From the NCBI GenBank assembly GCA_021850705.1, contig JAJZKU010000009.1:1-34165 (forward strand): 34,165 nt of DNA. Reading direction: 5' to 3'. The DNA is from Microcaldota archaeon (GTDB taxonomy: Archaea > Micrarchaeota > Micrarchaeia > Micrarchaeales > CABMGC01). The position numbers and the translations under genes were made by a program. A model generated the notes under the pieces. The model worked only from the letters and a program-made list of their open reading frames with translations, had not been told where the DNA came from and searched no databases. Each line of letters opens with the position of its first letter. Position 1 is the first letter of the stretch. This document shows positions 132 to 1,236 of the stretch, one piece after another.

Positions 132-202
132 GGGTTCGTAGTCCAACGGTAAGACGCTACCTTCACACGGTAGAGACCGGAGTCCGACTCTCCGCGGACC
201 CA
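132..202 (+). tRNA. tRNA-Val (anticodon CAC)
   Basis: Acceptor GGGTTCG (132-138)/CGGACCC (195-201), discriminator A202; anticodon arm CTACC-TTCACAC-GGTAG; T arm CGGAG-TCCGACT-CTCCG. No encoded CCA. Confidence 0.93.
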
Positions 203-253: not shown

Positions 254-487
254 CTATAAATATTCTTCAATGTCTTTCCACTTAAGGCCCGTCTGCTTAA
301 GTATCCTGTTCATTATTTGTTGTCTTAGTTCCTTCTGTGCTATCTGTATTACAGTAAAGTGTCCTTTCTGGTCCGACAATACGACATGATCACCTTTTCC
401 CTGTCTTGCAGAATAACCATAATGTTCTTGCAGTACTTTGATTAGTTTGTGAGGTTTTACTGGTCTCAGAGTACTTATAAAATCGCC
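254..487 (-). CDS. hicA: HicA-like mRNA interferase toxin reading frame (no canonical start codon)
   Basis: Manual translation in frame with the upstream HicB stop: GDFISTLRPVKPHKLIKVLQEHYGYSARQGKGDHVVLSDQKGHFTVIQIAQKELRQQIMNRILKQTGLKWKDIEEYL*. HicA-like pattern (RPVKPxxLIKVLxxxxGY..RQxGxHxxL...I..ELxxxxMNRILKQTGL). Absent from the supplied ORF track. Confidence 0.8.
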   Translation of the reverse strand, partial: GDFISTLRPVKPHKLIKVLQEHYGYSARQGKGDHVVLSDQKGHFTVIQIAQKELRQQIMNRILKQTGLKWKDIEEYL

Positions 488-718
488 TTAGCTTCTTGCA
501 ATCAGACTTTTAAGTACTGGTGACTTTACTTCACTACGCTTCTTTTCGAGCAGGAACGCTACTGCCGTATCTACCGCATCCTTAAGTTCGTTCTCCAATT
601 CGCGCAGGCTCTTGGCCTGATCCTGAATATGGAGCTCGTCTATAGTCCCTACAAATAGCTTTCCGTCCCTCTTAATATCAGCCTTAAATCCGTATATCTC
701 CATCTTCATGCTTATCAC
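488..718 (-). CDS. hicB: HicB-like antitoxin (start may be ATG at 709)
   Basis: 76 aa with HicB-like N-terminal fold pattern (FKADIKRDGKLFVGTIDELHIQDQAKSLRELENELKDAVDTAVAFLLE) directly upstream of a HicA-like frame. Confidence 0.75.
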   Translation of the reverse strand: MISMKMEIYGFKADIKRDGKLFVGTIDELHIQDQAKSLRELENELKDAVDTAVAFLLEKKRSEVKSPVLKSLIARS

Positions 719-816
719 TAAATATATTCATATTGCACATATAAAATGCTTCGCCTGTATTAGTCCAAAAACCAATACGGAAAAGTATCATAAATCTGGA
801 ATATCAAGATAACACT

Positions 817-1236
817 ATGAAAGAAAATTCAGTAACTCAAAAGGAACCCTTAGGATGCAGCATAGCCTGTGTGGCATTTATAAAAAATGTAAGTTACAAA
901 ACAGCAAAAGTCAGGTATTTCAACAAGCTTGGAGATGCAAAGAAGACAGGGTATATGTGCAAAGATGTAGTCAAAGCCTTAAACCGTGCAGGAAAAGCTT
1001 ACGATTACGTGTATATTAAAGGAAGGCAAAACTTCAAAGAAGACAGCATAGTGTTCATAAAACGTTCAAAGCGTTATCCAAAAGGCCATTATCTGGTCAA
1101 AGCGAAGAAAGGCTGGATGGATCCGTGGATAAACTTTAACGTTAAAAAACCGGTATTAGAAAGAGCAAGATCAGGATTCCGTCAAAAGCTTCCGGACAGG
1201 CCAATTTACCTAATTCTCCCAAAAACAGCATCATGA
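817..1236 (+). CDS. C39-like papain-fold cysteine peptidase domain protein
   Basis: Q-x4-GCSIAC (Gln + catalytic Cys), GHYLV (His) and MDPW (Asp) spaced as in peptidase C39-like domains; 139 aa stand-alone. Confidence 0.6.
   Translation: MKENSVTQKEPLGCSIACVAFIKNVSYKTAKVRYFNKLGDAKKTGYMCKDVVKALNRAGKAYDYVYIKGRQNFKEDSIVFIKRSKRYPKGHYLVKAKKGWMDPWINFNVKKPVLERARSGFRQKLPDRPIYLILPKTAS

Follow-up and report, generated by a model that had tools for sequence, protein, structure and literature searches.

A gene that carries no ATG, GTG or TTG at its beginning raises the question of whether it is translated at all and, if so, from which codon. We addressed this question for hicA, the toxin gene of a hicB-hicA toxin-antitoxin pair on the minus strand of a 34,165-nucleotide contig (JAJZKU010000009.1; this whole stretch is called the window below) from an archaeon of the order Micrarchaeales. 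The genome containing the window is metagenome-assembled and consists of 647 kb in 24 contigs, with an estimated completeness of 79%. An earlier note, made from the letters of the window alone, had described a HicA frame that follows the hicB stop codon without a canonical start, and re-reading of the minus strand bore out both its coordinates and the absence of ATG, GTG and TTG from the hicB stop up to the start of the conserved HicA domain. The junction reads GCA AGA AGC TAA (490-488), GGC GAT TTT (487-479), ATA (478-476) and AGT ACT CTG (the CTG at 469-467), followed by AGA CCA GTA AAA. The leader directly before the hicA start position is GGTGATTTT. The hicB TAA and the hicA open reading frame (ORF) lie in one frame, which ends with TAG at 256-254, and codons 1-20 of hicA contain no canonical start codon. 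Among the 31 homology-supported ORFs of the window, hicA alone lacked a canonical start close to the conserved N-terminus; a second ORF that had been flagged has TTG ATG just inside. The evidence presented below argues that hicA is an intact gene under selection, that it is very probably translated from the near-cognate codon AUA (478-476), which a Shine-Dalgarno (SD) sequence places behind hicB, and that it represents one instance of an order-wide trait. The features concerned are the following.

491-709, minus strand: hicB antitoxin coding sequence, 73 amino acids, ATG at 709, stop codon TAA (490-488) excluded; HicB-like predicted fold, UPF0150-like Pfam match below cut-off.
488-490, minus strand: TAA stop codon of hicB; the hicA start follows 12 nt downstream.
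482-487, minus strand: SD-like GGCGAT, beginning 9 nt before ATA and matching the 16S tail.
476-478, minus strand: putative hicA start codon ATA, in a column that holds ATA seven times, ATT twice, ATC once and ATG five times among 15 relatives.
254-478, minus strand: hicA toxin coding sequence, 74 codons plus TAG, recognised by PF07927, the ratio of nonsynonymous to synonymous substitution rates (dN/dS) and an AlphaFold model.

The profile search that had been proposed for the translation matched it to the Pfam family HicA_toxin (PF07927) at 28.1 bits (gathering score 27, E 2.2e-6), and the same family was matched by all 12 HicA homologues scanned. The AlphaFold model of HicA (12 homologues), with a predicted local distance difference test score (pLDDT) of 81.6, showed the order alpha-beta-beta-beta-alpha and a fold resembling the double-stranded RNA-binding domain. 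Its best PDB matches were 1whz (E 2e-4, template modelling score (TM) 0.82) and the HicA chains of 6g26 (TM 0.63). In the G-x-H motif both G29 and H31 were invariant in the alignment, and the histidine that the earlier note had taken to be catalytic is thus kept. The assignment of the upstream protein as HicB is weaker by sequence, as the UPF0150-like match reached 14.8 bits in the window and up to 24.3 bits in relatives at a cut-off of 27.3. It is supported by the predicted fold, since the four best PDB matches of the model (pLDDT 84) were HicB or HicB-like proteins (2yzt, 3k6q, 6g1n; E 0.03-0.6, probability 0.9-1.0). By profile, fold and adjacency, the pair is an intact hicB-hicA toxin-antitoxin operon with predicted toxicity. 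It shares with the known type II HicBA/HicAB systems (E. coli HicAB and the Burkholderia pseudomallei complex 6g26) the HicA profile and fold, the G-x-H motif and an adjacent small HicB-fold partner within one operon. The E. coli hicAB operon is toxin-first and has two promoters (PMC5535158), whereas here the antitoxin gene comes first, HicB has no recognisable DNA-binding domain, and the toxin starts with AUA, AUU or AUC (hereafter AUH) instead of AUG.

To place the start, the hicB-hicA junction was compared among 15 homologues in which the N-terminus is kept, the window included. All of these lie within two families of the order of the window. Those with named records come from metagenome assemblies of Candidatus Micrarchaeota, of which two bear the label Marsarchaeota; a search of 302 genomes of the phylum at E ≤ 1e-17 brought up no further member. 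At the codon corresponding to 478-476, ATA occurred in the window, L003, L004, L005, L006, L011 and L015, ATT in L007 and L008, ATC in L010, and ATG in L009, L012, L013, L014 and L016. The first two bases (AT) were therefore invariant in 15/15 and the third base alone varied. The hicB stop codon was situated 10-12 nt upstream of the start codon in 14 of the 15 copies and 26 nt upstream in L009. Moreover, nine of the ten AUH copies had no in-frame ATG, GTG or TTG back to the preceding stop codon. In the operon tree, four ATG copies formed one clade and all AUH copies together with the ATG copy L009 formed the other, which requires at least two changes between AUG and AUH. This implies that the AUH state is old and has been retained.

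The toxin itself is also under strong purifying selection despite having no AUG. In comparisons of the ATA copies that are complete (L003, L005, L006 and the window), the dN/dS of hicA was 0.05-0.09 at a synonymous divergence (dS) of approximately 0.2-1.8, which is as low as that of hicB, and adding L004, which carries a stop codon, changed the range to 0.05-0.11 where dS could be estimated. At the same time, the AUN codon (N, any base) and the SD sequence were kept while neighbouring synonymous sites changed. Since the first two bases of the codon are invariant in all 15 copies and hicA evolves at a dN/dS of about 0.05-0.1, the observation goes beyond chance.

The position of the AUN codon agrees with the way in which start sites are marked in this lineage. 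The 16S tail of Micrarchaeales relatives is GGAUAGAUCACCUC, and the SD-like hexamer in front of hicA matches it. Bases -9 to -4 read GGTGAT in L005, L006 and L015, GGTGAG and GGTGAA in L003 and L004, respectively, GGCGAT in the window and GGGGAT in L007, so that the hexamer usually ends 3 nt before the AUN codon. The SD match was found at -9 in the AUH copies of the window, L003, L005 and L007; the match at this position was poor in L008, which has GGTG at -10, and in L010. Over six AUH copies, the match to GGTGAT exceeded that in the rest of the operon with a combined p of 5e-6, a value that ignores shared ancestry. For ATG genes in three further Micrarchaeales genomes, the modal SD spacing was that of a GGTG whose first base stands at -9. 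Therefore, judged by spacing, ATA sits exactly at the position where the ribosome of this lineage would expect a start.

The same comparison bears on three other explanations of the junction. The start could lie elsewhere, either at the CTG at 469-467, which the earlier note had named beside ATA, or at an internal codon giving a shorter toxin. CTG is the stronger near-cognate in many systems, and CTG starts were found in several genes of one genome that we surveyed (G093, below). However, the CTG column is occupied by CTA, CTC, CTT, TTG or ATG in relatives, the SD sequence at -9 points to ATA, the ATG copies align their ATG with the ATA column, and codons 1-20 of the window offer no canonical internal start. 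CTG 469 was accordingly rejected on its unconserved column, and a start other than ATA is very unlikely.

Readthrough of the hicB TAA, which would yield a HicB-HicA fusion alongside HicB, is suggested by the shared frame of the two genes in the window, L003 and L004. In L005, L006, L011, L015, L007 and L010, however, the hicB stop lies at -11 nt, in a frame other than that of hicA. The stop codon varies, as does the sequence 3' of it, and it is the spacing between SD and AUN, not the reading frame, that is conserved. Because the HicB frame differs between relatives, readthrough is not the conserved mechanism, and the reading of the window as a readthrough fusion is rejected; we consider this explanation most improbable. 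There is next to no chance that ATA is a sequencing or assembly error for ATG. Although the window belongs to a metagenome-assembled genome, an error is excluded because seven independent genomes read ATA, and three more assemblies have ATT or ATC. Of the possibilities raised by the earlier note, the junction comparison thus speaks for ATA 478 as a non-canonical start whose position suits termination-reinitiation coupled to HicB, and discards the CTG, the readthrough and the error.

Such start codons are not confined to hicA, and in a survey of conserved ORFs (described below) RNase HII was conspicuous. Among 39 Micrarchaeales genomes, the codon at the SD-placed position of the RNase HII gene was ATA in 12, ATT in 12, ATC in 4, GTT in 4, ATG in 5 and another codon in 2; AUH codons were thus present in 28/39. 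In 21 of the AUH cases there was no ATG, GTG or TTG upstream, either to the preceding stop codon or over 16 codons. The geometry is that of hicA, with the start 3 nt after a GGTGNT SD sequence in most genomes, and in the window's own genome the RNase HII gene (L253, G000:C7:16322-17020) reads GGTGATCTT ATT. Outside the order, when junctions were read by eye, one of 19 readable RNase HII genes was without a canonical start. An RNase HII gene from outside the order (L261, G258:C55) reads GGTGATGCC ATA with no canonical start.

A survey for genes without canonical starts was made on the conserved ORFs of three genomes, G079 (426 ORFs), G093 (464) and G032 (533), after the removal of antisense shadow ORFs. 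At the SD-defined codon, 26 of 62 non-canonical codons were ATA, ATT, ATC, CTG or ACG. Control offsets gave 48 of 432, and the difference has a Fisher p of 2e-8. The enrichment was significant in G093 alone (p 5e-7) and not in G032 alone (p 0.06). The clear cases, in which orthologues have ATG or TTG at or beside the aligned codon and the gene identity was checked by NCBIfam, were metG at ATA in G079; fen1 at ATC and the genes of aRF1 and a tRNA-binding protein at CTG in G093; and polC and the genes of uS4 and topoisomerase VI subunit B at ACG, as well as that of aIF2-alpha at ACG or ATA, in G032. A hand count gave roughly 2-8 near-cognate-start genes per surveyed genome, or about 1% of the conserved genes, and this count errs on the low side, since a gene that happens to have a canonical codon upstream escapes detection. 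These results suggest that start choice is probably relaxed throughout Micrarchaeales, where a rigidly spaced GGUG-type SD sequence (first G 9 nt ahead of the start) would define the start site, and AUA, AUU, AUC, CUG, ACG and perhaps GUU would serve a percent or so of the genes, including essential ones (uS4, the DNA polymerase II large subunit, MetRS, aRF1, FEN1 and RNase HII). HicA would then be one gene that has kept its weak codon over the span of a deep clade. An explanation confined to the toxin can be dismissed as the sole cause, since RNase HII and other genes share this start usage.

Several observations weigh against the translation of hicA from AUA or against parts of this account. 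The evidence for the AUA start is comparative throughout. The SD sequence of the window (GGCGAT) is weaker than that of most sister copies, and among the AUH copies L008 offers a GTG as an alternative, three codons farther upstream. The initiation factor aIF1 is encoded in 51 of the 53 genomes searched; its loss as the cause of relaxed starts is thereby ruled out, and no simple loss explains the relaxed start choice. In addition, a toxin-specific throttle is unnecessary if the lineage uses AUH starts generally. Finally, of the seven hicA copies with ATA three carry damage, each next to an intact hicB: L004 (L053) has TGA at codon 5, L011 (L059) a deletion of 13 codons, and L015 (L064) a frameshift and an insert. 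In some genomes the toxin is thus being lost and the antitoxin retained, a description that does not fit the window copy.

Such damage would be expected if an ancestor shared by the ATA copies had lost the ATG, so that hicA is an untranslated, decaying toxin and hicB alone is needed, and the dN/dS of 0.8 between L005 and the deleted copy L011 points in the same direction. Against this silencing by start loss, which the earlier note had also considered, stand the low dN/dS of the complete ATA copies, equal in strength to the constraint on hicB, and the conservation of AUN and SD amid changing synonymous sites. Moreover, the hicA copies with ATT and ATC in other lineages are intact, and this start usage recurs in the housekeeping enzyme RNase HII. 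Silencing is therefore unlikely, and for the window copy it does not agree with AUH starts retained across an old clade.

We therefore favour translation of an intact hicA from AUA, the codon that we infer to be used for its start, with an initiation that would be coupled to hicB. The operon would be transcribed from the following element, whose counterpart upstream of hicB in most relatives resembles TTTTATAT/TTTAATAT.

736-746, minus strand: TTTTATATG, read from the sequence as the probable TATA-type promoter element of hicBA, some 30 nt ahead of the ATG of hicB.

HicB would be translated from its ATG, with termination 12 nt before the hicA start. GGCGAT may then hold the terminating ribosome or a new 30S subunit with AUA in the P site, and Met-tRNAi would start hicA on AUA by virtue of start-site placement and not of a perfect codon match. 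With reinitiation at a weak codon, toxin levels would stay beneath those of the antitoxin; that the codon has been retained for this purpose is the least certain part of our explanation, and it is perhaps merely tolerated, because unrelated genes share such starts.

Rare AUH starts exist in E. coli, in infC (AUU) and pcnB (AUU). The present case has in common with them an AUH start that evolution has kept and a gene whose level has to remain low or regulated; it differs in being archaeal, in concerning a toxin and RNase HII, and in the spread of near-cognates over many genes of one order. For archaea, a review of initiation gives AUG, GUG and UUG as the only start codons (PMC7531240), and aIF1 is reported to discriminate against non-canonical starts in other archaea (PMC8211752, PMC6237735). 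SD pairing with the 16S tail and the presence of aIF1 are shared with these archaea. In the open-licence literature we found no report that Micrarchaeota characteristically use AUA, AUU, AUC, CUG or ACG starts, which is no proof of novelty, and none of a HicA with such a near-cognate start. HicA/HicB modules and rare AUH starts are both known. Of greater interest than the toxin gene is the trait shared across the lineage. If true, SD-spaced AUA, AUU, AUC, CUG and ACG starts across an order would challenge the view of archaeal start choice as limited to AUG, GUG and UUG and policed by aIF1. The practical consequence is that gene callers, which accept only ATG, GTG and TTG, miss toxins and mis-start enzymes or drop them from annotation in these archaea. 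RNase HII and HicA provide ready natural constructs for the study of start-codon recognition by the archaeal 30S subunit.

Some further observations concern paralogues and surroundings of the operon. A paralogous HicA gene (L024, G143:C15:3362-3562) has no ATG at the expected start (ATC GTC AAG TAT) and no clear SD sequence; other paralogous HicA genes start with ATG or TTG. Divergent to the operon, positions 817-1236 (plus strand) hold an ORF of 139 amino acids with weak matches to Peptidase_C39 and Paratox below the cut-offs. Just before the hicB ATG, L054, L061 and L062 carry a near-palindrome, TATCTAAAGAGATA/TATCTATAGAGATA, which could be an operator. On the other side of the operon lies a tRNA gene that is not part of the module.

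132-202, plus strand: tRNA-Val (CAC), whose 3' end faces the 3' end of hicA.

The toxin end of hicBA likewise faces the 3' end of tRNA genes in L052 (Pro), L053 (Val), L055 (Ile), L058 (Arg) and L061 (Leu). Because these tRNA genes differ, the arrangement suggests that hicBA is a mobile cassette inserted at tRNA genes.
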